Origin: a virus
DNA: 22,126 nt
Direction: 5' to 3' (one strand)
IMG/VR virus record: IMGVR_UViG_3300042945_001424
Coordinates: 1 to 22,126 of that record
Shown: in pieces, positions 1,867 through 11,509 of the stretch
Position numbering within the stretch: position 1 is the first letter of the stretch
Layout of the letters: every line of letters begins with the position of its first letter
Notes under the pieces: generated by a model
What the model was told of the DNA's origin: nothing
Databases searched by the model: none
Seen by the model: the letters and a program-made list of their open reading frames with translations, nothing else
Program-made: the position numbers and the translations under genes

Positions 1867-1910
1867 AAGCTCGACGAGAACTCACATCTAGTTTGCATCT
1901 CGTCGAGCTT
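1867..1910. repeat. Perfect 13-bp inverted repeat, CTCGNCGAG family
   Basis: AAGCTCGACGAGA at 1867-1879 is the exact reverse complement of 1898-1910, with an 18-nt loop. The core CTCGACGAG is itself a palindrome around one central base. Further direct copies of AGCTCGACGAG occur at 1938-1948 and 2024-2034. There is no T-run after it, so it is not a typical terminator. It lies just before an extended -10 box and may be a protein-binding site or an RNA hairpin. Confidence 0.85.
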
Positions 1911-1912
1911 TA

Positions 1913-1921
1913 TGCTACAAT
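1913..1921 (+). promoter_or_regulatory. Extended -10 promoter TGC-TACAAT
   Basis: TGCTACAAT lies 29 nt before the ATG at 1951 and directly follows the 13-bp inverted repeat. It is the same box found before genes at 7528, 8006 and 8211. A CTCGNCGAG copy (1938-1948) lies in the leader, just before the start codon. Confidence 0.6.
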
Positions 1922-1950
1922 ATACTAGTATTCAATAAGCTCGACGAGTT

Positions 1951-2091
1951 ATGTACGACGATTACGATCTCGACTACACATACACAAACGATTATGCGGA
2001 TCTCGAAGAGTATTATACACAAGAGCTCGACGAGGACTATGCACGAGACGCGCATGATTATCAAGATCTCGCGTATCGTCATTATGCATGA
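1951..2091 (+). CDS. Tyr/Asp-rich acidic microprotein (46 aa)
   Basis: A 46-residue open frame with 11 tyrosines, 11 aspartates and 4 glutamates, against only two arginines and no lysine. It begins MYDDYDLDYTYTNDYAD. I do not recognise a family. The extreme negative charge would suit a DNA-mimic or a protein that binds a basic host factor, but that is speculation. Support for a real gene: a good extended -10 box 29 nt upstream, a clean ATG and stop, and another promoter that begins exactly at its stop codon. Its DNA contains one CTCGACGAG copy (2026-2034). No Shine-Dalgarno sequence is visible. Confidence 0.55.
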   Translation: MYDDYDLDYTYTNDYADLEEYYTQELDEDYARDAHDYQDLAYRHYA

Positions 2092-2097
2092 TACAAT
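2089..2097 (+). promoter_or_regulatory. Extended -10 TGA-TACAAT overlapping a stop codon
   Basis: The TGA stop of the preceding microprotein (2089-2091) supplies the TGN of an extended -10 whose hexamer TACAAT is 2092-2097. The next ATG is 25 nt downstream at 2123. The same arrangement recurs at 6794-6802. Confidence 0.55.
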
Positions 2098-2122
2098 CTA
2101 GTACACATATGCATCTAGTACT

Positions 2123-2272
2123 ATGATAGCACAGAAACGCCTAGTACGTGTACATTTAGACATCATGTGTTATGATGATCTAGATGTAGAACATATAGAC
2201 TGGAAAGAATTATTAGATCTTGAAGGTGACGAAGAAGTCTATGCTAGCACCAAGGAATTTGATCCATTCTGA
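2123..2272 (+). CDS. Small acidic protein (49 aa), unknown
   Basis: A 49-residue acidic protein. It begins MIAQKRLVRVHLDIM, then is dominated by Asp and Glu (YDDLDVEHIDWKELLDLEGD), and ends EFDPF. I do not recognise an assigned family, although short acidic proteins ending in FDPF are a pattern I vaguely associate with cyanophages. It is preceded at 25 nt by a TGA-TACAAT promoter. There is no Shine-Dalgarno sequence. It is followed by a non-coding stretch with a 21-bp palindrome (2286-2306). Confidence 0.55.
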   Translation: MIAQKRLVRVHLDIMCYDDLDVEHIDWKELLDLEGDEEVYASTKEFDPF

Positions 2273-2285
2273 TATTGTGACACTT

Positions 2286-2306
2286 TTATAACTGGACCAG
2301 TTATAA
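2286..2306. promoter_or_regulatory. 21-bp perfect palindrome, candidate operator
   Basis: A perfect palindrome centred on base 2296 with 10-bp arms (left half TTATAACTGG, right half CCAGTTATAA). It sits immediately before AT-rich sequence with overlapping TATAAT/TACAAT-like boxes at about 2302-2324. The length and symmetry fit a dimeric repressor site. It could also act as a small hairpin at the end of the preceding gene; there is no clear T-tract. Confidence 0.6.
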
Positions 2307-2393
2307 TATTATAATACAATATAATGCTAGCGTTATATGTGACGATTCTAGAAGTGGCACAATCCCCCTTGTGGTGGGGGCGGAAATCGGTTA

Positions 2394-2402
2394 TGTTACA
2401 TT
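2394..2402 (+). promoter_or_regulatory. Extended -10 TGT-TACATT
   Basis: TGT then TACATT, 17 nt before the ATG at 2420. The following CATTCGTCGCTGAG resembles the sequence after the -10 boxes at 2676 and 3210 (CATTCGTTCCTGAG), so it is one of a family of promoter-leader modules. The GC-rich block at 2366-2382 upstream includes short C and G runs that could pair. Confidence 0.55.
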
Positions 2403-2419
2403 CGTCGCTGAGATTCCTG

Positions 2420-2626
2420 ATGCTTCCTTCCTTCAACGCTCTCCAGTTTAACTCCAAGGAAGAACATTCTGCAGCACTGTATGATGCTTGCCTGCTGATT
2501 GTGAACACGTATAATCAAACCGATGTTTTGGATGGTTATGCTATCGACAATCACAAAGGTGGTGTGACTGCTTATGATTTCATGAAGTTTGCCCGCAATA
2601 TTATTAATCAATTGGCGGAGGTGTGA
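2420..2626 (+). CDS. Unknown 68-aa phage protein
   Basis: The frame is open from 2324, but earlier ATGs (2324, 2393) lie upstream of or inside the -10 box at 2394-2402. I therefore place the start at 2420, giving 68 residues beginning MLPSFNALQFNSKEEHSAAL. It is predicted soluble and helical, with no motif I can name. The stop is embedded in a 31-bp element (2623-2653) that recurs almost exactly at 3675-3705. It is probably monocistronic, since the next gene has its own promoter. Confidence 0.6.
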   Translation: MLPSFNALQFNSKEEHSAALYDACLLIVNTYNQTDVLDGYAIDNHKGGVTAYDFMKFARNIINQLAEV

Positions 2627-2653
2627 CAGTCTACAAGGTGGCACAAGACCCCT
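2623..2653 (+). repeat. 31-bp junction repeat, copy 1
   Basis: Matches 3675-3705 at 30 of 31 positions (T/C difference). It contains CCTACAAGGTGG-like sequence here and CCACAAGGTGG in copy 2 (4-bp stem, 3-nt loop), followed by CACAAGACCCCT. A related sequence occurs at about 6123-6150. All copies lie at gene ends directly upstream of a promoter, which suggests a mobile or recombinogenic terminator element. Confidence 0.8.
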
Positions 2654-2675
2654 AGACTTCCTGCCCAATCCGTCC

Positions 2676-2681
2676 TACATT
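2676..2681 (+). promoter_or_regulatory. -10 box TACATT with conserved leader
   Basis: TACATT 24 nt before the ATG at 2706, followed by the leader GCATTCGTTCCTGAG, which is nearly identical to that after the box at 3210. It lacks the TG extension. Confidence 0.45.
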
Positions 2682-2705
2682 GCATTCGTTCCTGAGTTTT
2701 TGATT

Positions 2706-2852
2706 ATGTGCGGTCCCGCTTTTGAATATACTTTCGAAGACTTCATTAATGATGCTTCGGAAGCCGAATGGAAAGAATGGGAAAGTGAGGCAAACCGTCT
2801 GGAATTGCCGCTGGATTATTATATTCAGGAGTTCGTGGGACAGTTGGGATAG
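2706..2852 (+). CDS. Small acidic cyanophage protein (48 aa)
   Basis: The 48-residue product begins MCGPAFEYTFEDFINDASEA and contains EWKEWESEANRLELPLDYY. The pattern, an FTFEDF-like segment followed by a Trp/Glu helix and LPLDYYxQEF, is one I recall from short cyanophage proteins without known function. It is acidic, soluble and probably two helices. It is preceded by a TACATT promoter and followed by a strong GC hairpin with a TTCG loop, so it is likely a single-gene transcript. The start was chosen because it is the first ATG after the promoter. Confidence 0.68.
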   Translation: MCGPAFEYTFEDFINDASEAEWKEWESEANRLELPLDYYIQEFVGQLG

Positions 2853-2860
2853 TGGTACAA

Positions 2861-2886
2861 GGGGGGTTGCATTCGTGCTGCCCCCC
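2861..2886 (+). terminator. G6/C6 hairpin with TTCG tetraloop
   Basis: GGGGGG (2861-2866) pairs with CCCCCC (2881-2886). Inside, GCA (2869-2871) pairs with TGC (2876-2878) around the tetraloop TTCG. There is no long T-tract; instead TGT-TATGTT begins at 2887, so the hairpin sits directly against the next extended -10. Confidence 0.6.
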
Positions 2887-2895
2887 TGTTATGTT
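2887..2895 (+). promoter_or_regulatory. Extended -10 TGT-TATGTT
   Basis: Begins at the base after the GC hairpin. It would give a ~40-nt leader before the ATG at 2945; no better box lies nearer. Confidence 0.4.
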
Positions 2896-2944
2896 TGATT
2901 CGTGGTTGAGGAATTCTCTACACCAACCTCCCACACCATTTGTT

Positions 2945-3202
2945 ATGAAAACCACCAACACTTTCTACTGGACTTTCATCGACACGTTGATCTTCAACGT
3001 TGCTACCATCTCCGCAATCGTTGTGGGAATTGTACAGTTTGCTGTGCGTTCGTTCAATGAGAACAATGGCAAAGAAAAGACCCGTAAGATGATGCAAACT
3101 GTTCTGCAGTTCGTTGATACCATTGTGGATCAACTGCTGGCACAACTGAATGCTGATGTGCCGCCTGTGAAAGTGGCACAGAAGCGCACCAAGCGTTCCT
3201 GA
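2945..3202 (+). CDS. Single-pass membrane protein conserved in cyanophages
   Basis: 85 residues. A hydrophobic segment at about residues 8-34 (WTFIDTLIFNVATISAIVVG...) is followed by FAVRSFNENNGKEKTRKMM, an amphipathic helix, and a very basic tail ending RTKRS. It probably has a short N-terminus outside or in the membrane, with the basic tail in the cytoplasm. I recall close relatives in many cyanomyophages with the same FAVRSFNENNGKEKT block, always unassigned. The frame is open upstream to 2852, but the first ATG after the promoter at 2887 is 2945. Confidence 0.75.
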   Translation: MKTTNTFYWTFIDTLIFNVATISAIVVGIVQFAVRSFNENNGKEKTRKMMQTVLQFVDTIVDQLLAQLNADVPPVKVAQKRTKRS

Positions 3203-3206
3203 TTCC

Positions 3207-3215
3207 TGCTACATT
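3207..3215 (+). promoter_or_regulatory. Extended -10 TGC-TACATT
   Basis: Begins 5 nt after the stop of the membrane-protein gene and lies 24 nt before the ATG at 3240. It is followed by ACATTCGTTCCTGAGAG, the same leader type as at 2676. It drives the three-gene run 3240-3669. Confidence 0.55.
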
Positions 3216-3239
3216 ACATTCGTTCCTGAGAGACAAACC

Positions 3240-3365
3240 ATGTTTGATGAACTCTGGTCTGAGATTCAAGATGCTCCTGGTGAGATCTTTGACATGGACA
3301 TTCCCGAACTGAAAGATGAAAAGTTCGATGTGAATGAGTACCTGAACGCAAACTACGATTACTGA
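3240..3365 (+). CDS. Very acidic 41-aa protein, first of a coupled trio
   Basis: A 41-residue product with 13 acidic residues and two lysines, beginning MFDELWSEIQDAPGEIFDMD and ending YLNANYDY. I do not recognise a characterised family. It has its own extended -10 promoter 24 nt upstream, and its stop overlaps the next start (TGATG), so it is translationally coupled to two further small acidic genes. Possible roles such as DNA mimicry or binding of a basic host factor are speculation based only on charge. Confidence 0.6.
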   Translation: MFDELWSEIQDAPGEIFDMDIPELKDEKFDVNEYLNANYDY

Positions 3366-3520
3366 TGACAATGACTCTCACTTCGTTGACATTTGAGGAA
3401 CTGGATGCCATTCTGGCACTCATTGAGTTTCATGATGATTGGAGTTTCGTGAGTGAACAACTGAATGTAGATGTTTCTGCATTGTATGACAAACTTTCTG
3501 AAATGAGGGATGAAGTCTGA
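3365..3520 (+). CDS. Small acidic protein (51 aa), middle of coupled trio
   Basis: Starts within TGATG at the end of the previous gene. The product begins MTMTLTSLTFEELDAILALI and continues with an acidic helix to the end (LYDKLSEMRDEV). Its LTFEELDAILALIE block aligns with LTPDDLNNLIRLVE in the next gene, so the two look like diverged tandem copies. Short helical proteins of this kind (LT-x-E-E-L with hydrophobic heptads) are common in cyanophages and unassigned. An internal in-frame ATG at 3371 is a possible alternative start. Confidence 0.62.
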   Translation: MTMTLTSLTFEELDAILALIEFHDDWSFVSEQLNVDVSALYDKLSEMRDEV

Positions 3521-3669
3521 TGAACTATCTCACTCCTGACGATCTTAACAATCTGATTCGTTTGGTTGAAGATAACAACCAATACAATGACGATGAGGAT
3601 AAAGAGTTCTGGGATGACATTCTGACTCGTTTGCAGCAACAGTACAACTTCGCACTCTACACTTCCTGA
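3520..3669 (+). CDS. Small acidic protein (49 aa), last of coupled trio
   Basis: Starts in a TGATG overlap with the preceding stop. It begins MNYLTPDDLNNLIRLVEDNN, then an Asp-rich patch, and ends LYTS. Its first helix resembles that of the upstream gene (see there), pointing to an old tandem duplication. It is followed after 5 nt by the 31-bp junction repeat copy 2 (3675-3705), which is likely where the trio's transcript ends. No function is assigned. Confidence 0.62.
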   Translation: MNYLTPDDLNNLIRLVEDNNQYNDDEDKEFWDDILTRLQQQYNFALYTS

Positions 3670-3674
3670 ACCAT

Positions 3675-3705
3675 GTGACAGTCCACAAGGTGGCACAAGA
3701 CCCCT
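3675..3705 (+). repeat. 31-bp junction repeat, copy 2
   Basis: Differs from 2623-2653 at a single base. It contains CCAC-AAG-GTGG (4-bp stem) and then CACAAGACCCCT. Its last base is the first T of the TTGCAA -35-like hexamer of the next promoter, so repeat, gene end and promoter abut. Confidence 0.8.
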
Positions 3706-3733
3706 TGCAATTGCCCCCGATCTGATCCATACT
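3705..3733 (+). promoter_or_regulatory. Sigma-70-like promoter TTGCAA-17-CATACT
   Basis: TTGCAA at 3705-3710 and CATACT at 3728-3733 are separated by 17 nt; the ATG at 3759 follows after 25 nt. It is one of the few promoters here with a recognisable -35. Confidence 0.6.
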
Positions 3734-3758
3734 GTATTTGTTGAGAGGGAAACCCCCA

Positions 3759-4106
3759 ATGCGTAAGATCGAACAGCAGATGAACGCCGCCATTCGTGAC
3801 TCCATCAACTGGAAGTCTGGCAACACTGAGGTTACCTTTGACCCTGAAACTCAAGAGTCTAAAGTGTTCCTGCACGGCAATCACATCGCCACCATTGGTG
3901 ATGACTTCGTGCAAATCTTTGACGGTGGTTATCAGTCTGTGACCACCAAATCGCGCCTGAATGCTATTCTTCAAGAGCATGGAATCAAGGGCGAATGTGT
4001 GTTTCAACGCAACTTCAATTGGTTCGTCCACAAGTTCATCGGGCAGGCAGGAACTTCTCCTGTCTACAATGAATACGAATTCCAAGATGGGTTCATGTTC
4101 GCATAA
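3759..4106 (+). CDS. Conserved T4-like cyanophage protein (115 aa)
   Basis: A 115-residue protein beginning MRKIEQQMNAAIRDSINWKS, with SNTEVTFDPET-like and LHGNHIATIGDDFVQIFDGG blocks, then TTKSRLNAILQEHG and a C-terminal VFQRNFNWFVH. I remember this arrangement as a widely conserved protein in cyanomyophages and some other T4-like phages, without assigned function. The fold is likely beta-rich first, then helical. The frame is open to a TTG at 3738, but the ATG at 3759 has proper spacing from the promoter. It is followed by the best intrinsic terminator in the window. Confidence 0.78.
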   Translation: MRKIEQQMNAAIRDSINWKSGNTEVTFDPETQESKVFLHGNHIATIGDDFVQIFDGGYQSVTTKSRLNAILQEHGIKGECVFQRNFNWFVHKFIGQAGTSPVYNEYEFQDGFMFA

Positions 4107-4112
4107 AGAATC

Positions 4113-4137
4113 GGGGGGCGATTGCCTCCCTTTTTTT
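4113..4137 (+). terminator. Canonical intrinsic terminator
   Basis: GGGGGGC (4113-4119) pairs with GCCTCCC (4124-4130) around GATT, with one G-T pair, and is followed by seven T (4131-4137). It ends transcription of the 3759-4106 gene. The last T overlaps a TATACT (4137-4142) that may start a new transcript. Confidence 0.92.
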
Positions 4138-4328
4138 ATACTTTCTTTCTTACTATTTCAAAGCTGCCCCAGTGGCGACCTTTTTCGTCTTCAGGGCTAC
4201 CCCGCCCCTCCTTCGCTTGTGACCTTAGTATAAGACGCCACAGACCCCGTAGAGGGTCACCCTGTGCCAGTTCGTAAGGTGGCACCCTACCGCTTGTGCT
4301 GCCCCTGAATCCCTGGTATCTTAAGAGC
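4138..4328 (+). other. 191-bp non-coding gap with hairpins
   Basis: No supported gene. It holds a TATACT box at its edge, a GACCC/GGGTC inverted repeat around 4244-4258, and a GTGCCA/TGGCAC hairpin (4264-4285) whose right arm resembles the GGTGGCAC core of the junction repeats. An extended -10 lies at the end (4314-4322). Confidence 0.5.
4314..4322 (+). promoter_or_regulatory. Extended -10 TGG-TATCTT, near-leaderless start
   Basis: The hexamer ends only 6 nt before the ATG at 4329, so transcription would begin at or near the start codon. If this is the true promoter, the ligase-like mRNA is leaderless; otherwise an upstream promoter such as 4137-4142 is used. Confidence 0.35.
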
Positions 4329-5222
4329 ATGAAGAACACCCACCTCGAACACCCCGAAGATACCATCCTCACGGGCGACCTGTCCGTTCTGGATTGGTTC
4401 GTGAATCCTGGTTCCCTGTCCGTTAAGATCGACGGTGCTCCCGCCATTGTATGGGGCATCGACCCTGCCTGTGGTGAATTCTTTGTAGGAACCAAGGCAG
4501 TCTTTAACAAGAAAAAGATTCGTATTGCACACAATCATGAAGAGATTGATGCATTCTATCAGGGTGAAGTTGCGCGTATTCTGCATTCTTGCTTTGATTA
4601 TCTGCCTCGCGCAAATGCTATCATTCAAGGTGATTTTATTGGTTTTGGCGGTAGTGATGAGTATTGCCCCAATACGATCACTTACAAGTTTGGTGAGGTA
4701 GTTTCTCAAGAGATTATCATCGCTCCTCACACTTGCTATTATGCTGAGAGCGACCTTCGTGATGCAGTCGCAATGCCTGATCGTGCCGTCTGGAATGATA
4801 CTGAAACGGTGAAGTTCATCAAACCTGATGCTTACATTCTGCACAATCAAGAGTCGTTCGCTGATGTAAAAGAGGTTGTAGATTTTGCCCGTCAAATGTC
4901 TACTACTGCTCAGTTCGTGAGTGAGAAGGAAGCAGCAAAGATCAAACAGCAGATCAACGCTTGCATCCGTTCGGGTGATCAGATCGTCGCAGAAGATTTC
5001 GATTGTGACGCTAACCTGATTCGTTTGTGGGCATTGGTAAAGAGCATCAAAGATGACTGCCTGTTTATCTGCCGCAATGACGGACCTGCAGCATACATCA
5101 ATGGCAACCGTATTGATGCCGAAGGTTATGTGATGACCAATGAGTTTGGTATGTTCAAACTGGTGAATCGTGAGGTGTTCGCTTATCATAATTTCAACAG
5201 CGGACGGTTTCAGGTCGCATAA
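4329..5222 (+). CDS. ATP-dependent ligase / nucleotidyltransferase-like protein
   Basis: A 297-residue protein with the motifs of the covalent nucleotidyltransferase (DNA/RNA ligase) superfamily. Motif I is K33-I-D-G36 within SLSVKIDGAPAIVWG, whose lysine would take AMP. A QGDFIGFGG segment near residues 99-107 may stand for motif III. Motif IV is E265-G-Y-V268, and motif V is K277-L-V279. I know this family from cyanomyophages (TGDLSVLDWF... KxDGxPAIVWG), usually labelled hypothetical or RNA ligase-like; the substrate is unknown. The frame is open from 4296, but 4329 is the first plausible ATG. The next gene is a nuclease-like protein, which suggests joint action on nucleic acid ends. Codon use is richer in GC at the start than in the middle. 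Confidence 0.75.
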   Translation: MKNTHLEHPEDTILTGDLSVLDWFVNPGSLSVKIDGAPAIVWGIDPACGEFFVGTKAVFNKKKIRIAHNHEEIDAFYQGEVARILHSCFDYLPRANAIIQGDFIGFGGSDEYCPNTITYKFGEVVSQEIIIAPHTCYYAESDLRDAVAMPDRAVWNDTETVKFIKPDAYILHNQESFADVKEVVDFARQMSTTAQFVSEKEAAKIKQQINACIRSGDQIVAEDFDCDANLIRLWALVKSIKDDCLFICRNDGPAAYINGNRIDAEGYVMTNEFGMFKLVNREVFAYHNFNSGRFQVA

Positions 5223-5239
5223 GCGACGCTAATGGGTCA

Positions 5240-5257
5240 GGGGGTTGACCTGCCCCC
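5240..5257 (+). terminator. G5/C5 hairpin with -35 in its loop
   Basis: GGGGG (5240-5244) pairs with CCCCC (5253-5257) around TTGACCTG. An alternative pairing is GGTCA (5235-5239) with TGACC (5246-5250). There is no T-tract. The TTGACC of the next promoter lies in the loop, so end and start signals are superimposed. Confidence 0.5.
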
Positions 5258-5273
5258 CAATCCAGGGTATTCT
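5245..5273 (+). promoter_or_regulatory. Sigma-70 promoter TTGACC-17-TATTCT
   Basis: TTGACC (5245-5250) and TATTCT (5268-5273) with exactly 17 nt between them, one of the two best sigma-70-like promoters in the window. It gives a leader of roughly 88 nt to the ATG at 5368. Confidence 0.65.
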
Positions 5274-5281
5274 ATGTTCAC

Positions 5282-5326
5282 CAGGGGGGAGGAAGGAGGA
5301 CCCCCCAAGGGCAGAGGTGAGGACTG
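5282..5326 (+). other. Structured leader with two GC hairpins
   Basis: The leader between the promoter and the nuclease-like gene can fold a G-run (5284-5289) with a C-run near 5301-5306, then GGGCAG with CTGCCC (about 5309-5329, 9-nt loop). It may be an attenuator or the remnant of a junction element. A second weak -10 (TCTATT) lies downstream at about 5336-5341. Confidence 0.4.
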
Positions 5327-5367
5327 CCCAACCTACTCTATTCGCCCGTGTCGATCACGGTAAACAA

Positions 5368-6120
5368 ATGACCTACAAAACTGACGGTTCTGTTCATCAC
5401 GGTGGTGTGAAGAATGAGGACCTCACCGTTCAAATCCTGAATGAAAAGCAAATCTACAGCGAAACTGTAGAGAAGCGTGGCGGCACTAAGTGTAAGGAAG
5501 ATGCCGTCGCTGGTGATAAGAAGATCAGCATCAAGCGTAAGGAAGGCATCAGCAACGGTTCGTTTGATTGGTTCAACACCAGCGCCTACAATGACGTGCT
5601 GGGTGATACCTTTGACCACTTTCTTTCTAACATGAAAGAACTCCGTCAGATGCCCGAATCGCTGCGTTCTGATGAAGAATTTGTGCTGAAGATTCGCGAC
5701 AGTTTCAATGCTCTCTGCGAACTTTCCCTGGATTCTCTCACCTCTGCACAAGTGATTGAGATTCTGCAGCGTGGTCTGATTGAGCACAATGCTGGGTTTG
5801 ATCTGGTGATCAACGACACCAAGACTTCTGAACTTTATGTGTTCGCTGCAGAGCAACATCCTGCAGTCGGTTACATTCAGAAGGGTTACTCTGTTGTTCT
5901 CAAAGGCAACGGCAAATCTTCCCGCATGGTGTACTTTGTAGATGCTGAAGGGAATGTGTATGATTGCGGTCTGCGTTTGCGGGTGACCAGTAACAACGGC
6001 ATCAATGCATTTCTGGGCGCCAGTAAGGCAAACCGTAACAGTCAAGTTGTCATCAAACTGCAGCAGGACAAGGTAGGTAAACTTCTGCAGGAAGTCAACG
6101 CCCGCTGTGACGCTTACTGA
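5368..6120 (+). CDS. PD-(D/E)XK-nuclease-like protein
   Basis: A 250-residue protein. The N-terminal region reads HHGGVKNED (E17), then GGTKCKEDAVAGDKKISIK, in which D45 followed by S54-I-K56 fits the D...(S/E)xK metal-binding core of restriction-type nucleases. The rest is mixed alpha/beta, with a helical middle and a C-terminal domain rich in beta strands (YSVVLKG, MVYFVDAEGNVYDCG). I infer a nuclease from this pattern only; I have no family name. It lies directly after the ligase-like gene but has its own sigma-70-like promoter. The frame is open to 5245; the ATG at 5368 is the first methionine and precedes the conserved block. It ends just before a G6/C6 hairpin. Confidence 0.6.
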   Translation: MTYKTDGSVHHGGVKNEDLTVQILNEKQIYSETVEKRGGTKCKEDAVAGDKKISIKRKEGISNGSFDWFNTSAYNDVLGDTFDHFLSNMKELRQMPESLRSDEEFVLKIRDSFNALCELSLDSLTSAQVIEILQRGLIEHNAGFDLVINDTKTSELYVFAAEQHPAVGYIQKGYSVVLKGNGKSSRMVYFVDAEGNVYDCGLRLRVTSNNGINAFLGASKANRNSQVVIKLQQDKVGKLLQEVNARCDAY

Positions 6121-6131
6121 ACTGTCCACCA

Positions 6132-6149
6132 GGGGGGCACAGACCCCCC
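6132..6149 (+). terminator. G6/C6 hairpin before the GC-rich array
   Basis: GGGGGG (6132-6137) pairs with CCCCCC (6144-6149) around CACAGA. The surrounding GTCCACCAGG...GGCACAGACCCC aligns with the 31-bp junction repeat at 2623 and 3675. The next -10 box starts 11 nt later. Confidence 0.6.
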
Positions 6150-6159
6150 TCCCTGCCCC

Positions 6160-6165
6160 TATACT
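6160..6165 (+). promoter_or_regulatory. -10 box TATACT, leader CAGTTCA
   Basis: TATACT 22 nt before the ATG at 6188. The leader ACTTCAGTTCA also follows the box at 7765. No -35 is visible, since its place is taken by the hairpin. Confidence 0.6.
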
Positions 6166-6187
6166 AACTTCAGTTCAAACGAACCCA

Positions 6188-6448
6188 ATGCCCGCCACCA
6201 CCTACCAGACCAACCTCACCGACCGCACCTATAACGGTTGGACGAATTATGAGACCTGGAATGTTGTGCTCTGGATTGAGAATGATGAGGGCATTTATAC
6301 CTTCATCCGTGAGAATGATATCTGCTGCTATGAGGATCTGCTTGAGGCATTCTATGAGTTCGGCACCAAAGAAACTCCCGATGGTGTGAAGTGGAACGAC
6401 CCTAAGATCAACCGCGCTGAGATTAACGGCGACGTGTTTGATTTCTGA
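6188..6448 (+). CDS. NGWTNYETW-family small protein (DUF7249-like)
   Basis: An 86-residue protein with the conserved block NGWTNYETWNVVLWI at residues 16-30. I recognise this from a family of small proteins common in cyanophages and other phages (annotated DUF7249, as I recall), with no established function. It continues with an acidic helical part and ends DVFDF. The frame is open from 6107, but the ATG at 6188 has the standard spacing from the TATACT box and its leader is A/C-rich without a Shine-Dalgarno. It is the first gene of the GC-rich array, though its own GC is intermediate. Confidence 0.82.
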   Translation: MPATTYQTNLTDRTYNGWTNYETWNVVLWIENDEGIYTFIRENDICCYEDLLEAFYEFGTKETPDGVKWNDPKINRAEINGDVFDF

Positions 6449-6481
6449 TTCTGATTCTCACTTTCCCATCGCAAATTTCTG

Positions 6482-6598
6482 ATGTTTAAACTGCTGGTTC
6501 TGGGTTGCGTCGCTTACACTCTCTGGGGTCCGCTGGAACCGATCCGCAGTGTGACGGCAAGCGCACTGCACACCGCAGGCGATATCGTCTCCCGCTGA
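6482..6598 (+). CDS. Tiny membrane-anchored or exported protein (38 aa)
   Basis: A 38-residue product with a hydrophobic N-terminus (MFKLLVLGCVAYTLWGPLEP) that could span the membrane or serve as a signal anchor, then a short polar tail. I recall similar MxKLLVLGCVAYTLW peptides in cyanophages. It lies 33 nt after the previous stop with no clear promoter of its own, so it is probably co-transcribed with 6188-6448. Its stop is followed at 5 nt by the next -10 box. Confidence 0.6.
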   Translation: MFKLLVLGCVAYTLWGPLEPIRSVTASALHTAGDIVSR

Positions 6599-6603
6599 CC
6601 CTG

Positions 6604-6609
6604 TAGAAT
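6604..6609 (+). promoter_or_regulatory. -10 box TAGAAT
   Basis: TAGAAT, 25 nt before the ATG at 6635. The leader ends CAAGCAAACGACCCC, matching the one before the ATG at 7092 (AAAGCAAACGACTC). Confidence 0.5.
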
Positions 6610-6634
6610 TCTTCCATACCAAGCAAACGACCCC

Positions 6635-6796
6635 ATGCGCTTCGAAGTCCGTTACCAGACCCCCTACAACGCTTGTGAGTGGCGGTCGCAGTGGTTCACC
6701 AGTAAAGAGGAGGCAGACCGCATGGTAGACTTCTACCGCTCCTGTGGTTCTCCCTCTCACATCGCCCCTAGCAGTCTGGCGCAACTCGAACGCTGA
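6635..6796 (+). CDS. Small unknown protein (53 aa)
   Basis: 53 residues, MRFEVRYQTPYNACEWRSQW then FTSKEEADRMVDFYRSCGSP. An N-terminal strand, a helix and an Ala/Glu helix suggest a compact alpha/beta mini-domain. The phrase FTSKEEADRMVDFYRS resembles small cyanophage or cyanobacterial proteins with a 'W-x-S-x-x-F-x-S-x-E-E-A' pattern; function unknown. The codon choice is GC-rich. The stop TGA at 6794-6796 is also the TGN of the next promoter. Confidence 0.65.
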   Translation: MRFEVRYQTPYNACEWRSQWFTSKEEADRMVDFYRSCGSPSHIAPSSLAQLER

Positions 6797-6802
6797 TACA
6801 AT
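6794..6802 (+). promoter_or_regulatory. Extended -10 TGA-TACAAT overlapping a stop codon
   Basis: The stop codon TGA (6794-6796) is followed at once by TACAAT (6797-6802). This is the second such overlap in the window (see 2089-2097). The next ATG is 52 nt downstream at 6855, longer than the usual leader. Confidence 0.6.
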
Positions 6803-6854
6803 GGGAACGGCAGCGCCCCTAAAGACTCCGCCAACCTTTCTACCCGAATTCCAA

Positions 6855-7022
6855 ATGACCCGCGACCTTGCCCTGTCCCTGCTCCGCCAAGGTAGCAACG
6901 GGGACAGCATCCTGCAGATCCTGGATACCATCACCAGCGACGTTGAGCAGGCAGGCATCGCTGACTGCGCCGCCCATTATGCGGCAATCAGCGCCCCGAC
7001 CGCCGATCCGATCCAGTTCTGA
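6855..7022 (+). CDS. Small helical protein (55 aa), MTRDLALSLL type
   Basis: 55 residues, MTRDLALSLLRQGSNGDSIL then QILDTITSDVEQAG. I recall this short helix-turn-helix-like pattern (LALSLLxQGxNGxxILxILD) from many cyanophage and marine Synechococcus small proteins; function unknown. The frame is open to 6744, but upstream of 6855 it overlaps the preceding gene and the promoter, so the ATG at 6855 is the start. An ATG at 6802 is in another frame. It is followed by a strong hairpin (7034-7062). Confidence 0.72.
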   Translation: MTRDLALSLLRQGSNGDSILQILDTITSDVEQAGIADCAAHYAAISAPTADPIQF

Positions 7023-7033
7023 ATCTGACCACC

Positions 7034-7062
7034 AGACCCCCACGGTTCGCCGCTGGGGGTCT
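7034..7062 (+). terminator. 8-bp hairpin fused to the next -10
   Basis: AGACCCCC (7034-7041) pairs perfectly with GGGGGTCT (7055-7062), with a 13-nt loop. The next base starts TATACT (7063-7068). Terminator stem and promoter are directly joined and the hairpin occupies the -35 region. Confidence 0.75.
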
Positions 7063-7068
7063 TATACT
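7063..7068 (+). promoter_or_regulatory. -10 box TATACT
   Basis: TATACT, 23 nt before the ATG at 7092. There is no TG extension and no -35. Confidence 0.55.
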
Positions 7069-7091
7069 ATGGGAACCAAAGCAAACGACTC

Positions 7092-7259
7092 ATGACCCTG
7101 ACCGAAGCGAACCTAATCTGGAATGCCTGCTACGGCGACGACCTCAACAGCGATGGTTGGGCAACCTACACCAGCGCCCAGAGGCAGCAGGCGATCGAAG
7201 TCCGCGACGCTCACGCCAACGGCGGCTGGGGCGTGTGGGACATCAGCGACCGCCACTGA
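7092..7259 (+). CDS. Small unknown protein (55 aa) upstream of HicA-like gene
   Basis: 55 residues beginning MTLTEANLIWNACYGDDLNS and ending GGWGVWDISDRH, with a central helix (AQRQQAIEVRDAHANG). I do not recognise a characterised family. It is co-transcribed with the following HicA-like gene (13-nt gap and no promoter between them), so it is the obvious positional candidate for an antitoxin partner. However, it does not look like HicB: there is no RNase-H-like strand pattern and no C-terminal ribbon-helix-helix or HTH. GC-rich codon use. Confidence 0.65.
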   Translation: MTLTEANLIWNACYGDDLNSDGWATYTSAQRQQAIEVRDAHANGGWGVWDISDRH

Positions 7260-7272
7260 CCCCGACCCTCCT

Positions 7273-7494
7273 ATGGCATCCCCAATCAAGGTACGCGACG
7301 CCCGCCGCCAGTTCCTGAAGGCAGGAGCAACCATCAAATCAGGGGGCAGTCACGACAAGGTGACCCATCCTAGCATCCCCCAGACCTTCCACCTTCCGAC
7401 TCACGGCAGCAAGGGACGCCCGACTCTCTCCCCTGGCATGACCCACGAATTCCACAAATTTCATGCCCTGCTCCTAGCAGCACGGGACGCCTGA
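7273..7494 (+). CDS. HicA-like (YcfA family) mRNA-interferase-type protein
   Basis: A 73-residue basic protein. The N-terminal helix KVRDARRQFLKAGATIK, then GGSHDKVTHP with H27 in the G-S-H motif, and then the strand FHLPTHG fit the HicA double-stranded-RNA-binding fold, in which the GSH histidine is catalytic. HicA toxins cleave mRNA until bound by HicB. Here no HicB is seen on either side. An early phage gene could use it alone against host mRNA, or the 55-aa upstream gene could be a novel partner. The frame is open further upstream in an overlap; the ATG at 7273 puts the domain at the expected N-terminal position. Similarity is by eye only. Confidence 0.6.
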   Translation: MASPIKVRDARRQFLKAGATIKSGGSHDKVTHPSIPQTFHLPTHGSKGRPTLSPGMTHEFHKFHALLLAARDA

Positions 7495-7496
7495 TC

Positions 7497-7505
7497 TGCT
7501 ACAAT
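7497..7505 (+). promoter_or_regulatory. Extended -10 TGC-TACAAT
   Basis: GATCTGCTACAATACTCTCA here is repeated identically at 7967-7986 and largely at 8174-8190. It lies 2 nt after the HicA-like stop and 22 nt before the ATG at 7528. Confidence 0.7.
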
Positions 7506-7527
7506 ACTCTCAACCGCAACGAACCCC

Positions 7528-7725
7528 ATGACTCACACCATCTCCAACGCCGACGCCCAACTCCTGCAGACTGCTGATGTGATCACCTGGGATTGCTTCA
7601 CCCCTAGCATGATCCGCCAGATGCACGCCACCCCTGACGGTGCTGAGATCCTCCGCCTGATCGTCCGCGACAACCTGCAGGGCGCTGCTGATAAGATCGC
7701 CAACGCCCTCTGGCCCAATTCCTGA
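7528..7725 (+). CDS. Small unknown protein (65 aa)
   Basis: 65 residues, MTHTISNADAQLLQTADVIT then WDCFTPSMIRQMHATPDGAE and a helical C-terminus. Two or three helices are predicted with no membrane segment. I do not recognise a family; it is not HicB-like although it follows the HicA-like gene. It has its own extended -10 promoter and an A/C-rich leader without Shine-Dalgarno, and a GC hairpin follows its stop, so it is a single-gene unit. Confidence 0.7.
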   Translation: MTHTISNADAQLLQTADVITWDCFTPSMIRQMHATPDGAEILRLIVRDNLQGAADKIANALWPNS

Positions 7726-7735
7726 ACCGCACACT

Positions 7736-7753
7736 GGGGGCCGCGATGCCCCC
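7736..7753 (+). terminator. GGGGGC/GCCCCC hairpin
   Basis: GGGGGC (7736-7741) pairs with GCCCCC (7748-7753) around CGCGAT. It has no T-tract; a TATACT box follows 11 nt later. Confidence 0.55.
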
Positions 7754-7764
7754 CACCGACCCGC

Positions 7765-7770
7765 TATACT
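7765..7770 (+). promoter_or_regulatory. -10 box TATACT, leader CAGTTCA
   Basis: CTATACTGACTTCAGTTCAG closely matches the promoter at 6160 (CTATACTAACTTCAGTTCAA). The ATG follows 23 nt after the box. Confidence 0.6.
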
Positions 7771-7793
7771 GACTTCAGTTCAGACAACCTCTC

Positions 7794-7955
7794 ATGACCC
7801 GCTACGACGTGTTCTGCCCCTCCGCTCCTTGGGAGAACACCACCACCGACGCCGACCGCGCCTGGCTCCTGTGCCTGGACCTCTCTGAAGAGTACGGTTA
7901 CGCTCAGGTCCGCTGCAACGGGGTCATCATCGGAGACTACACCAACGGGCAGTGA
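7794..7955 (+). CDS. Small unknown protein (53 aa)
   Basis: 53 residues, MTRYDVFCPSAPWENTTTDA, then DRAWLLCLDLSEEYGYAQVR and a final strand VIIGDYTNGQ. A strand-helix-strand mini-domain is plausible (W-x-L-x-L-x-L-x-E-x-Y-G). No known family comes to mind. Promoter spacing and leader type match its neighbours. A run of ten C (7957-7966) follows its stop, between it and the next promoter. Confidence 0.65.
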   Translation: MTRYDVFCPSAPWENTTTDADRAWLLCLDLSEEYGYAQVRCNGVIIGDYTNGQ

Positions 7956-7970
7956 GCCCCCCCCCCGATC

Positions 7971-7979
7971 TGCTACAAT
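7971..7979 (+). promoter_or_regulatory. Extended -10 TGC-TACAAT
   Basis: Identical over about 20 bp to the promoter at 7497 (GATCTGCTACAATACTCTCA) and followed by ACC as there. It lies 26 nt before the ATG at 8006 and directly after a C10 run. Confidence 0.7.
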
Positions 7980-8005
7980 ACTCTCAACCGACACCTCCCC
8001 CACCG

Positions 8006-8173
8006 ATGACCAACCACACCTGGGCCGACAACGCGATGCGCTGCGCCGCTGCCCGCGCTGCCGCCCTGCGTCCCTTTGAGCACGAGTCCTGGGCACACTA
8101 CCGTCAGCAGCGGGAGCGGGAGACTCTGACCGCCCTGTGGCATCTCTACTGGGATCATGAGGTCGCCTTTTGA
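8006..8173 (+). CDS. Small helical, Ala/Arg/Trp-rich protein (55 aa)
   Basis: 55 residues, MTNHTWADNAMRCAAARAAA then LRPFEHESWAHYRQQRERE and ALWHLYWDHEVAF. It is largely helical, with aromatic residues spread along it. No recognised family. The frame is open to 7952, but the upstream part covers the promoter, so the ATG at 8006 is preferred. Its stop at 8171-8173 is followed 2 nt later by the next TGC-TACAAT box. Confidence 0.65.
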   Translation: MTNHTWADNAMRCAAARAAALRPFEHESWAHYRQQRERETLTALWHLYWDHEVAF

Positions 8174-8175
8174 CC

Positions 8176-8184
8176 TGCTACAAT
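8176..8184 (+). promoter_or_regulatory. Extended -10 TGC-TACAAT
   Basis: CCTGCTACAATACTCTCAGT, then TCACAGG, 26 nt before the ATG at 8211. It has no hairpin upstream; the preceding stop codon is 2 nt away. Confidence 0.7.
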
Positions 8185-8210
8185 ACTCTCAGTTCACAGG
8201 ACCCCGAACC

Positions 8211-8471
8211 ATGCTCACCTCCATCATCTGCGCCGCCATCCGCACTCACCTGATCAACGATGGCCCCATGACCTGCTCCGACCTGGTGCGCTCTATGGGT
8301 CTTGACCCCCGCCGCCACAAGGGCACCATCCATGCCCTGATGGTGGACATGGAGCAGGAGCGCATCCTCGCCGCCACCTGCCACGCCAACGGCAAGCGTG
8401 ATGAGTGGTTCATCCTGCCCGAAGCGATCCGCAAGCGTGATCGGCTGGTCGCCGCAATGGCAGGCATCTGA
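8211..8471 (+). CDS. Winged-helix-like DNA-binding protein (86 aa), candidate regulator
   Basis: An 86-residue protein with the layout of a small winged helix. Helix 1 is about residues 3-16. MTCSDLVRSMGLD (20-32) is the first HTH helix, HKGTIHALMVDMEQE (36-50) the likely recognition helix, and RILAATCHANGKRDEWFIL (51-69) a beta-wing hairpin. A basic helix and tail follow. This resembles MarR/ArsR-type or replication-initiator-type wHTH folds; no specific family is certain. It could bind host or phage promoters, and the repeated promoter boxes in this array are natural candidate targets (speculative). The frame is open to 8157, but the ATG at 8211 fits the promoter. Confidence 0.68.
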   Translation: MLTSIICAAIRTHLINDGPMTCSDLVRSMGLDPRRHKGTIHALMVDMEQERILAATCHANGKRDEWFILPEAIRKRDRLVAAMAGI

Positions 8472-8478
8472 TTCGTGA

Positions 8479-8502
8479 GGGGGTGGGTTGCGATCCGCCC
8501 CC
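8479..8502 (+). terminator. 9-pair GC hairpin
   Basis: GGGGGTGGG (8479-8487) pairs with TCCGCCCCC (8494-8502), including two G-T pairs, around TTGCGA. It begins 8 nt after the stop of the wHTH gene and is followed by the TACAAT box at 8511. Confidence 0.65.
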
Positions 8503-8510
8503 CGATGCTG

Positions 8511-8516
8511 TACAAT
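8511..8516 (+). promoter_or_regulatory. -10 box TACAAT
   Basis: GATGCTGTACAATTCTCTCA is a variant of the array promoter with one extra base before the hexamer, so the TG is displaced. The ATG lies 25 nt downstream. Confidence 0.6.
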
Positions 8517-8541
8517 TCTCTCAGTTCACCACCCCAGACCG

Positions 8542-8712
8542 ATGCGCTTCCCCCTCTGCATGTGCTCTGACCTGGAGACCCGCCAGATCAAATGGATCTC
8601 CCGCCACGACCAACTGAAGAACGGTTCCCGCCCCTCCGCCTACATCCACTGGGGTCTGCCCGCCGTCGCCATCGCCGCCCAGTACTCTGAGGCATTCGCG
8701 GGGCGGGGGTGA
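8542..8712 (+). CDS. Small unknown protein (56 aa), last of the GC-rich array
   Basis: 56 residues, MRFPLCMCSDLETRQIKWIS, RHDQLKNGSRPSAYIHWGL, then an Ala-rich helix. Two cysteines (C6, C8) lie close to the N-terminus. No family recognised. The frame is open to 8488, but the start at 8542 is consistent with the promoter. After its stop, 197 nt are non-coding, including G/C-rich arms at about 8755-8784 that can form a hairpin. Beyond that the base composition turns AT-rich. Confidence 0.62.
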   Translation: MRFPLCMCSDLETRQIKWISRHDQLKNGSRPSAYIHWGLPAVAIAAQYSEAFAGRG

Positions 8713-8755
8713 CCCGCTGTTCGTGGGGGCAGTCTTATTCGTTCGTGATCGGCAG

Positions 8756-8784
8756 TGGGTGGGGGGTTGCGGTCCCCTACCCCG
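8756..8784 (+). terminator. Imperfect GC hairpin at the array's end
   Basis: GGGTGGGG-type sequence (about 8757-8766) can pair with CCCC-T-ACCC (about 8774-8782) with one bulge, followed by further C-runs. It lies 10 nt before a TATAAT box and marks the boundary from GC-rich to AT-rich sequence. Confidence 0.45.
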
Positions 8785-8793
8785 CCCCCGTGT

Positions 8794-8799
8794 TATAAT
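8794..8799 (+). promoter_or_regulatory. -10 box TATAAT
   Basis: A perfect TATAAT following a G/C hairpin. TTGCGG lies at 8767-8772 but is 21 nt away, too far for a standard -35. It would transcribe the small gene at 8910 (or 8880). Confidence 0.5.
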
Positions 8800-8909
8800 G
8801 AATGGGTCCCCATAAGCTATAAACGACCCAGATCGACCTTTCAATATCTCTCTATTCAAAAAATCCCGGAGAATATATAATAGCAGAAAAGGTTCAATCA
8901 TATACTGAA

Positions 8910-9080
8910 ATGAAAAAAAATTCCGGAGATATTTTTGAGACGATACAAGTCGATCCAATTAACGGTGAATACTACCTTGTAATACCTGAGCAGATCATAA
9001 ACGATCTTTCATGGTACGAAGACACAGAAGTTAAGTTTACCTTAGAGGGTAACGAAGTCGTTTTATCAGAAAGAGACTGA
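8910..9080 (+). CDS. Small AbrB/SpoVT-like protein, start codon uncertain
   Basis: From the ATG at 8910 the product is 56 residues and ends GNEVVLSERD. The segment ETIQVDPINGEYYLVIPEQI, then DLSWYEDTEVKF and EGNEVVLS, resembles the swapped-hairpin AbrB/MazE DNA-binding fold (V-x-x-x-x-Y-x-x-I-P-E-x-I...L-x-W...V-x-F-x-x-x-x-x-x-V). The frame stays open upstream: AEKVQSYTEM precedes the ATG, and a GGAG (8868-8871) sits 8 nt before an in-frame ATA at 8880. That could mean a rare ATA start or a mutated ATG (then 66 aa). There is no ATG, GTG or TTG in that upstream extension. It is probably a small transcription regulator; cyanophage homologues are familiar but unassigned. Confidence 0.68.
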   Translation: MKKNSGDIFETIQVDPINGEYYLVIPEQIINDLSWYEDTEVKFTLEGNEVVLSERD

Positions 9081-9109
9081 TTGACTTCTTCTACATAATA
9101 GAGTATGAT
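9081..9109 (+). promoter_or_regulatory. Sigma-70 promoter TTGACT-17-TATGAT
   Basis: TTGACT (9081-9086), which begins at the base after the preceding stop codon, and TATGAT (9104-9109) with a 17-nt spacer. The glycosyltransferase ATG at 9132 follows 22 nt later. Confidence 0.7.
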
Positions 9110-9131
9110 ACTGAAGTAAACAACTTATCTT

Positions 9132-9890
9132 ATGGCTAAAGGATTTACAGTAAAAGCAAAATCGCCCGTAGTCGCATCACCCACACAAGAATGGGACTAT
9201 GATCTGGCAAAAGAAATGGTAAAAGGAAAGTCAATTGTTTTTTGTCTTCCTGGTAGAGGTGTATCTTACACATACTTAAAGAACTTCGTGCAACTGTGTT
9301 TTGACCTTGTGCAATCGGGGGCAAGCATTCAGATCTCGCAGGACTATTCATCGATGGTAAACTTTGCTCGATGCAAATGTTTAGGTGCGAATGTACTGCG
9401 TGGACCTGATCAGATTCCCTGGGATGGAAAACTTAAATATGATTGGCAACTTTGGATTGATTCTGATATTGTTTTCAATACAGAAAAATTCTGGCAATTA
9501 GTTCTAATGGAAAAGGATATCGCTGCTGGTTGGTATGCTACAGAGGACGGTCACACAACCTCAGTGGCGCACTGGTTGGATGAAGATGATTTCCGTGGTA
9601 ATGGTGGAGTGATGAATCATGAAACCGTTGATAGCATCTCAAAGCGTCGTAAGCCTTTCACAGTTGACTACACTGGTTTTGGTTGGGTTCTGATTAAAAA
9701 CGGTGTATTTGAACATTCGGAGATGAAGTATCCATGGTTTGCTCCTAAGATGCAAGTCTTTGAGTCTGGTCAAGTTCAGGATATGTGTGGAGAAGATGTA
9801 TCGTTCTGTTTGGATGCAAAAGAAGCAGGATTTGAAATTTGGTGCGATCCTCGCATCAGAGTCGGTCACGAAAAATCAAGGATTATTTGA
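9132..9890 (+). CDS. GT-A-fold glycosyltransferase-like protein
   Basis: A 252-residue protein with a nucleotide-sugar transferase layout. It has an N-terminal strand (KSIVFCLPGRGVSY), helices with the SQDYSSMVNFARC segment, then WQLWIDSDIVF containing the DXD metal motif D110-S-D112. A middle region GNGGVMNH follows, then TGFGWVLIKNGVFE, and the C-terminal E221-D222...C...G...DP...H246 typical of GT2-like enzymes. It probably transfers a sugar to phage DNA, a virion protein or host envelope; the acceptor cannot be read from sequence. This gene and the two tiny genes after it are a module I recall from cyanomyophages near speD and gene 25. Its TGA overlaps the next ATG (TGATG). Confidence 0.83.
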   Translation: MAKGFTVKAKSPVVASPTQEWDYDLAKEMVKGKSIVFCLPGRGVSYTYLKNFVQLCFDLVQSGASIQISQDYSSMVNFARCKCLGANVLRGPDQIPWDGKLKYDWQLWIDSDIVFNTEKFWQLVLMEKDIAAGWYATEDGHTTSVAHWLDEDDFRGNGGVMNHETVDSISKRRKPFTVDYTGFGWVLIKNGVFEHSEMKYPWFAPKMQVFESGQVQDMCGEDVSFCLDAKEAGFEIWCDPRIRVGHEKSRII

Positions 9891-10054
9891 TGTCTAACGA
9901 TTCTTACAATATTATCTGTAAGGGGAGAAAGATTTACTCAAGTCTTACAGAGCAAGAATATTTCGATATTATGGAGGACCTGGCGATTGAATTTTATCAG
10001 ACAGGTTCTCCACGCCCTGAAGAAATTGAAACTGAAATTATTGGAGAAAATTAA
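9890..10054 (+). CDS. Conserved small acidic cyanophage protein (54 aa)
   Basis: Starts within TGATG at the end of the glycosyltransferase gene and stops within TAATG at the start of the next, so it is coupled on both sides. The 54 residues include NIICKGRKIYSSLTEQEYFD, then IMEDLAIEFYQTGSP, and an acidic tail. I recognise this as a recurrent cyanomyophage protein of unknown function. The frame is open into the upstream gene as far as 9839, but the ATG at 9890 is clearly preferable. It is mostly helical and acidic. Confidence 0.8.
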   Translation: MSNDSYNIICKGRKIYSSLTEQEYFDIMEDLAIEFYQTGSPRPEEIETEIIGEN

Positions 10055-10799: not shown

Positions 10800-10802
10800 A
10801 TA
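10795..10802 (+). promoter_or_regulatory. Late-promoter-like motif AATAAATA
   Basis: AATAAATA overlaps the stop codon of the upstream gene and lies 36 nt before the speD ATG. It matches the T4 late consensus TATAAATA at seven of eight positions, and is followed by ATAAATTTTTA. The same ATAAATAAA core occurs before gene 25. Confidence 0.45.
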
Positions 10803-10838
10803 AATTTTTAACAGAAATTTGAGTTGGAAAAGTTTTCA

Positions 10839-11165: not shown

Positions 11166-11173
11166 ATAGAAAT

Positions 11174-11225: not shown

Positions 11226-11236
11226 GAGCTAACACA

Positions 11237-11479: not shown

Positions 11480-11480
11480 T

Positions 11481-11488: not shown

Positions 11489-11509
11489 AATAAAGAAATT
11501 TTATGTCCA

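Follow-up and report, generated by a model that had tools for sequence, protein, structure and literature searches.

How can a phage locus change its gene content from one relative to the next and keep its genes transcribed? This question is raised by an array of small genes (positions 1,913 to 8,712) in the IMG/VR virus record IMGVR_UViG_3300042945_001424. The whole stretch of DNA analysed here, referred to as the window, was 22,126 bases long and was a fragment of a freshwater T4-like cyanophage, kin of Synechococcus phage S-SRM01. The initial annotation had described at least thirteen small genes led by one minimal extended -10 promoter and had read them as a cassette system. Our analysis partly confirmed this observation, which was largely right and reached further than described. 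The region is probably a hypervariable locus of small accessory genes of freshwater T4-like cyanophages, consisting mostly of single-gene units, with a host-type promoter and a short leader at the head of each. Judged from their sequences, the boxes would be active promoters acting early, and the shuffling of the genes would result from homologous recombination between co-infecting relatives.

Two predicted promoter classes in the array

Most genes in the region had a promoter-like site of their own. Seventeen -10 candidates in the interval 1916-8511 were picked by hand and tabulated, and the gap from hexamer to start codon was 22-29 nt at 14 of them, which bore out the description of small genes with a hexamer shortly before the start. 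The exceptions were the sites at 2890 (49 nt), 4317 (6 nt to the ATG at 4329) and 6797 (52 nt). TGn, which had been said to stand often directly before the hexamer, did so at 9 of the 17 sites, including the site at 2089. A scoring matrix derived from 261 sites in other phages gave p≤0.014 for 10 array genes and was non-significant elsewhere, including 2089 and 6794; the positions 1913, 3207, 7497, 7971 and 8176, all proposed previously, had p values of 0.000-0.003. The site at 2089 failed against the matrix (p=0.495), yet it was taken as real because 41 of 48 distinct relatives kept the pattern TGnTAnn(A/T)T in front of this gene. The site proposed at 6794 was a poor candidate, as it had p=0.183, lay 52 nt from its gene, and relatives kept the downstream hairpin better than the TACAAT. 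Nor was one minimal promoter common to the whole array. Two promoter classes were present: type A in the 3' sector and, in the 5' sector, type B, which was distinguished by a -35 preceded by an inverted repeat.

Type A consisted of CCNCYGAYC-TGC-TACAAT-ACTCTC-A and had no conserved -35. Its 16-mer, TGCTACAATACTCTCA, was found in at least 119 IMG/VR stretches, often several times per stretch with a spacing of 200-500 bp. The repeated block noted earlier was recovered as exact copies of this 16-mer at 7497, 7971 and 8176; the 20-mer with GATC occurred twice (7493 and 7967), and the third copy had GACC. The corresponding promoters, on the + strand like the other modules of the array, spanned 7488-7512 (16-mer 7497-7512, gene 7528-7725), 7962-7986 (16-mer 7971-7986, gene 8006-8173) and 8167-8191 (16-mer 8176-8191, gene 8211-8471). 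All three were identified by exact match and by the matrix, and the third had the TGA of the preceding gene at its 5' edge. A variant, CTG-TACAAT-TCTCTC-A (8508-8523, p=0.000), preceded the last array gene, 8542-8712.

Type-A loci in other records were selected by the exact 16-mer, and near-identical loci were merged (97 loci with at least two boxes gave 69 clusters). The AT-rich loci L005, L017, L054 and L079 were left out of the array analyses. These were AT-rich phages, apparently a separate phage group, that carried the type-A 16-mer and, in the leader behind it, a GAAAGAGGAA-like ribosome site. With up to three mismatches, 395 type-A boxes (191 of them inexact) were present in 123 loci covering 1.13 Mb, versus 6 in Markov-shuffled sequence. 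A start codon followed 374 of the 395 boxes, nearly always 13-25 nt past the predicted +1, and the median open reading frame (ORF) was 63 residues long. The box directly abutted the preceding gene's stop codon at 71 of 239 sites. An analysis of the letters outside the 16-mer at 80 non-redundant GC-rich sites revealed the conserved CCNCYGAYC just upstream and a C/A-rich leader downstream, and neither a conserved -35 nor any conserved element around -30. Among 184 non-redundant sites, TACAAT was present in 158 and TGn in 142 (the search required TA...T), and the extended -10 boxes were thus real for this class. By its hexamer and TGn and its dispensable -35, type A is predicted to be a sigma70/SigA extended -10 promoter. 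No exact match to the 20-mer with GAYC turned up in 84,980 prokaryote genomes, and the 20-mer therefore cannot be explained as a host consensus alone; blastn with 51 nt of type A retrieved nothing from 50,697 phage records at E≤10. Folding z scores against mononucleotide shuffles averaged -1.61 for the 51 of 239 sites with a stop-to-box gap of at least 25 nt, compared with -0.23 at stop-fused sites (n=78) and -0.01 in a coding control (n=150). Phage S-PM2 contained two degenerate type-A copies (3 and 5 mismatches) with one leader common to both, and orthologues swapped TAYAAT and TAGAAT at the third hexamer base.

At the 5' end of the array, the extended -10 promoter TGC-TACAAT (1913-1928, p=0.003) preceded an ORF at 1951-2091 that encoded 46 residues and had homologues in 45 hits. 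The pattern TGnTAnn(A/T)T was present there in 11 of 23 distinct relatives, and at the S-SRM01 orthologue a TGC-TATAAT site, of the form TGC-TAYAAT, occupied the same place (L003:6307). Repeats of CTCGACGAG flanked this promoter (window 1868-1952), in inverted orientation upstream of it and once more immediately ahead of the start codon; they were kept in S-SRM01 and relatives and are a possible operator or stem-loop. The stop codon of the same gene was fused to the extended -10 TGA-TACAAT at 2089-2097 (hexamer 2092-2097), which lay 25 nt before the gene 2123-2272.

Type B showed a different order of elements, with a 24-bp inverted repeat, 7 nt, a TTGnnn -35, 17 nt and the -10, to which the commonest form added a conserved leader; the 21-mer TACATTACATTCGTTCCTGAG was exact in 94 IMG/VR stretches. 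The mean match to TTGACA was 3.22 of 6 at a spacer of 17, 2.15 at 18 and about 0.8-1.9 at other spacers. At least four of six letters matched at 16-18 nt in 56% of 27 type-B sites (controls 0-4%) and in 22% of the 184 type-A sites (shifted controls 5-7%), so that the statement that most boxes lack a -35 was right for type A and wrong for type B. By this geometry, type B is predicted to be a sigma70/SigA -35/-10 promoter. The inverted repeat TGTGNCASTTNNNNAASTGGCACA had 423 matches versus 0 in Markov sequence. With prokaryote loci left out, 416 matches (281 loci, 2.67 Mb) remained, which corresponded to 300 genomic sites in 125 loci. TTG followed at +7±1 in 208 of the 416 and TAnnnT at +30±1 in 269; at shifts of +4 and +6, where T/A-rich letters past the hexamer overlap, TAnnnT was found in 172 and 141, and at the other eight shifts in 2-19. 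A -10-like hexamer lay at 30±1 nt, in one orientation, at 217 of the 300 sites and at 64 of 88 sites made non-redundant by downstream sequence, where two shifted positions gave 2 and 5.

Five such composites with a distance of exactly 30 nt were located in the window (2338, 2622, 2836, 3674 and 4263), versus 0.12 per Markov window, and two weaker composites lay on the minus strand outside the array. The repeat at 2338-2361 (2 mismatches to TGTGNCASTTNNNNAASTGGCACA, 30 nt before the -10) belonged to the promoter at 2369-2404, which had the -35 TTGTGG, the -10 TATGTT (2392-2397), a predicted start at G2404 and a gene from ATG 2420 to 2626. This is the site that had been placed at 2394; it belonged to the -35-bearing class. 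The unit 2622-2688 (repeat 2622-2645, -35 TAGACT, -10 TACATT at 2676-2681, p=0.012) preceded a gene from ATG 2706, and the unit 2836-2902 (repeat with 3 mismatches, -35 TTGCAT, -10 TATGTT at 2890-2895) preceded the gene 2945-3202. Another unit, 3157-3230, carried TGC-TACATT (hexamer 3210-3215), ACATTC and GTTCCTGAG, with the exact 21-mer and p=0.000; its degenerate inverted repeat (3157-3180) lay within the preceding gene and was missed by the composite filter of repeat, -35 and -10. It was followed by the gene 3240-3365 and the overlapping genes 3365-3520 and 3520-3669. Two variants completed the set. The first, 3674-3740 (repeat 3674-3697, -35 TTGCAA, -10 CATACT at 3728-3733), led the gene 3759-4106, identified as Kyano_Gp96 (PF23790, E=6.7e-48), and the second, 4263-4329 (repeat 4263-4286, -35 TTGTGC, -10 TATCTT at 4317-4322), led a gene from ATG 4329, identified as DUF6267 (PF19782, E=1.5e-76, scored from 4332). 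The predicted +1 of the DUF6267 promoter (4317-4329) fell on the ATG, and a leaderless message is possible.

The type-B repeat may be a protein site or a degenerate stem-loop. As a stem-loop it folded weakly (z of -0.4 to -0.7), and its central letters did not covary or pair (G/G 130 and C/C 88 of 256). An origin as a host element was not supported. In the 84,980 prokaryote genomes 21 stretches were found (about 4 expected, a rough count), and among 36 orientation rows of these repeats, TTG at the phage spacing occurred in 2, a -10-like hexamer in 4 and both in 0; about six of the 21 records were cyanobacterial, without the promoter arrangement. The fixed distance of the inverted repeat suggests that a regulator may act there.

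Gene turnover and module exchange

The location of the modules was examined in an unbiased sample of 80 loci anchored on the neighbour gene 9132-9890, of which 40 had at least 2 kb upstream. At least one type-A box was present in 20 of these 40. The anchored loci had 48 type-A boxes on the gene strand and 2 on the other, and only 1 in 344 kb downstream. In six of eight large contigs all exact type-A copies fell within 3 kb (the remaining two had one exact copy or none), and in these six the type-B copies lay 3-6 kb before the type-A cluster.

The 374 proteins behind type-A boxes fell into 79 families, the commonest of which had 14 different predecessors. Both gene orders were seen for 71 of 186 pairs of array families versus 27 of 294 flanking pairs (65 non-redundant loci). 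Among 81 gene pairs with at least 95% identity, the upstream sequence was unrelated in 30 (16 families), and these shared 0-9 nt before the start codon in 13 cases, 10-19 in 5 and 20-44 in 12; the comparison was ungapped and therefore undercounts the letters shared by leaders that an indel separates. Leaders of one gene, compared between genomes in which its upstream neighbour differed, had an edit distance of 0.342, versus 0.446 for shuffled labels (standard deviation (sd) 0.009), and similarity within a genome was slight (0.433 versus 0.447, sd 0.007). Leaders are tied more closely to their gene than to the genome they are in. Of the 27 families for which four or more promoters had been typed, 21 had at least two module types; genes 6635 and 7794 are examples. 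Promoters are exchanged as well as carried, and one module stands before many genes. The proposal that each gene arrives with its own promoter was partly supported: promoter and leader tend to travel with the gene and the locus shuffles, but the same gene also occurs behind different modules.

Several findings weigh against a locus of self-promoted units. The genes at 3365, 3520, 6482 and 7273, and probably 5368, had no evident promoter of their own; the start codons of 3365 and 3520 overlap the stop of the preceding gene, and some array genes form small operons. No type-A box was found in 20 of the 40 anchored loci. Gene order was mostly colinear, with the minority order in 145 of 1536 array observations (41 of 2546 in the flanks). 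The box followed the gene only weakly (3.12 versus 3.47 mismatches, sd 0.16), and box similarity within a genome was also weak (3.16 versus 3.44, sd 0.09). The boxes were also considered as crossover points, and neighbour turnover inside the array was no higher at them. A first test showed no difference between box and box-free junctions, with noisy gene calls. A second gave a neighbour conservation of 0.139 at boxes versus 0.271 (p=0.0001) with conserved flanking genes included, and the difference was gone once the test was limited to array families, where three thresholds gave 0.129/0.124 (p=0.57), 0.128/0.139 (p=0.35) and 0.152/0.186 (p=0.20) for box and box-free junctions. Since turnover was equal at box-free junctions, the boxes are unproven as crossover points; the test is weak, as most box-free junctions are 30-75 nt gaps that may hold other modules, with 4-7 abutting pairs as a clean control.

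It is possible, if rather unlikely, that the promoters are real and the array is read mainly as a long polycistronic early RNA from upstream, with the boxes merely boosting distal genes. The genes all lie on one strand and some overlap, no T-runs followed the hairpins before boxes in the examples looked at, and T4 middle RNA is in part extended early RNA (PMC2988021). However, such an RNA would not need a site at nearly every gene, and the boxes are strongly conserved in sequence. The colinear order and the turnover untied to boxes would also fit promoters that evolved independently to one host optimum in a locus turned over by ordinary indels, without any cassettes. This explanation is improbable in view of the 7 of 30 pairs with unrelated upstream sequence that were identical over 30-41 nt, non-promoter leader letters included, of the clustering of leaders by gene across genomes, and of the absence of the type-A 20-mer from the prokaryote genomes searched. 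Quite improbable is a role of the repeats as recombination or mobile-element sites, integron-like or similar to miniature inverted-repeat transposable elements, that only resemble promoters. The distance to the start codons was fixed, type B had sigma70 geometry with a 17-nt spacer, TAYAAT and TAGAAT interchanged in orthologues, and neighbour turnover was not raised at boxes, although the boxes were confined to the shuffling locus in six of the eight contigs and in some pairs the shared stretch stopped at the box edge. Misassembly of metagenome contigs, which do carry many near-identical repeats of 16-40 nt, is a very improbable source of the shuffling, given that the same arrays recurred in different samples (window/L008/L026; L051/L053/L091/L114; L033/L042) and that the isolate S-PM2 has two type-A-like units with a single shared leader.

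In the favoured reading of a hypervariable locus of promoter-led units, the SigA/sigma70-like host polymerase would read each unit, most likely early in infection; host-like early promoters have been reported in the T4-like cyanophage Ma-LMM01 (PMC5780444). Relatives would recombine at genes as well as at promoter-leader modules and thereby alter the content of the array. A gene gained, lost or moved would still be transcribed at once because each unit brings its own promoter, and self-promotion would make a change of content harmless for expression. If true, this provides a concrete and testable route for T4-like cyanophages to acquire and discard small accessory genes and still express them, in that gene and switch move together or a resident switch is reused. 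More tentatively, the array might be a combinatorial platform for host-takeover genes, in which a shared pool of one-gene promoter-led units recombines via promoter-leader modules and a regulator of phage or host origin acts in the 5' sector on the 24-bp repeat, whose centre lies about 54 nt ahead of the start. The 24-bp repeat, with its constant 30-nt distance from the -10, would then represent a new operator of cyanophages. The modules offer a sequence handle to draw thousands of unknown early phage proteins from metagenomes and also yield a candidate phage-specific regulatory site. The related units with a shared leader in S-PM2 may bear on its freshwater-like ORFan genes, the origin of which was left open by Puxty et al. 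(PMC4503421).

Other modules and the flanks of the array

Further modules, like the module types counted above, were described by regular expressions written after the sequences were inspected. TATACT-AACTTC-A (A3, 6160-6172, p=0.013) preceded the gene 6188-6448 (DUF7249) and had 209 matches versus 0 in Markov sequence. The TAGAAT module (A4, 6604-6616, p=0.013) preceded the gene 6635-6796 and had 6 matches in 2 distinct contexts, versus 0. TATACT-ATGGGA-A (A5, 7063-7075) lay 23 nt before the gene 7092-7259 and had 17 matches in 10 contexts, versus 0; it scored poorly against the type-A matrix (p=0.214, at another site). The gene 7092-7259 was followed, without a promoter, by the gene 7273-7494, whose protein resembled a HicA toxin (phrog_18430 'toxin', E=1.7e-15; PF07927, 21.9 bits, under the cut-off of 27). 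TATACT-GACTTC-A (7765-7777, p=0.014) preceded the gene 7794-7955, and relatives had other modules before the same gene. A family starting with MLLTSGQKQRPRL and containing HELIH, found in related loci (for example L097 and L106), weakly matched a putative metallopeptidase (PF13203, E=0.0066, below cut-off).

The element GGGAACGGCAGCGCCCCTAAAGACTCCGCC at 6801-6835 had 57 matches in relatives (35 contexts) and 0 in Markov sequence. Its stem letters covaried (GGCAG/CTGCC 20, GGGTG/CGCCC 10, GGGAG/CTCCC 6), its loop GGG could form a pseudoknot with CCC, and the window copy paired imperfectly. A search of Rfam gave nothing relevant (three weak matches) and none for this element. The late-promoter-like NATAAATA matched the + strand of the window only at 10795, 11481 and 13724, and a scan of the window found none within the array.

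The conserved right flank (8910-9890, + strand) contained the genes 8910-9080 and 9132-9890, and the baseplate-wedge gene 11510-11911, gp25-like per the annotation of S-SRM01 and S-PM2, lay further on. S-SRM01 (Serangoon Reservoir, Kyanoviridae) was 78% identical to the right part of the window over 8903-12163, with baseplate-wedge genes downstream, and the same search gave no S-SRM01 match over the array. The GC content was 0.54-0.61 at 6-9 kb and 0.31-0.40 from 9 kb on; this hump (6000-9000) had counterparts in many relatives before the same neighbour gene. An ORF on the minus strand (1437-1805) lay at the left edge of the array, where the corresponding region of S-SRM01 has a minus-strand HNH endonuclease, and a 55-bp unit was perfectly duplicated in tandem at 1226-1335.

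Comparison with known systems

Integron cassettes are promoterless, carry attC sites and are moved by the integron integrase. The units of the array, unlike these, carry promoter-like sites of their own; no search was made for an integrase or attC. Mobile regulatory cassettes termed PeSL have reportedly been found in T4-like phages (Arbiol 2010, Comeau 2014), and the array is best read as a variant of these cassettes that appears to lack a constant stem-loop. It shares with them a promoter that recurs across a hypervariable T4-like phage region, the early timing being predicted here. Unlike in PeSLs, most type-A units have no clear stem-loop and no -35, the preceding stop is often fused to the box, and type B has the 24-bp inverted repeat at a fixed distance. 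PeSLs are early-promoter elements that recur in the hyperplastic regions of T4-like phages and are tied to the exchange of small unrelated genes; their density in the marine cyanophage S-PM2 was judged too low to account for the ORFan region there (PMC4503421), whereas the module density in the present arrays is high.

Among T4 promoters, the early ones are similar in being host-polymerase promoters before small genes of unknown function, and combine UP, -35, TGn and -10 (PMC2988021), while type A has no -35. The middle promoters have a MotA box centred at -30, where type A has nothing conserved and type B has a -35 instead. In the archaeal halovirus HF2, two classes of intergenic repeats carry promoters that were reporter-tested (PMC8707807). 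The array likewise has two repeat classes with predicted promoters, recognized here by sequence; repeat positions are conserved between viruses in the HF2 case, whereas the genes behind the repeats of the array are shuffled. Marine cyanomyophages have a hot spot of small genes between gp46 and gp25 (PMC3037559), and the array similarly lies near a gp25-like gene in a window that does not include the gp46 side; the passage of that source on the hot spot describes no repeated promoter array. No description of this array was found in the literature as judged by titles and abstract openings. As for the unusual use of promoters claimed initially, extended -10 (TGn/-10) sigma70 promoters are an ordinary class (PMC2988021), and type A resembles them in its TGn, TACAAT and dispensable -35. 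Unlike in a plain extended -10 promoter, conservation of type A reaches CCNCYGAYC upstream and ACTCTC-A downstream, and it is the array-wide shared sequence and the shuffling that are unusual.

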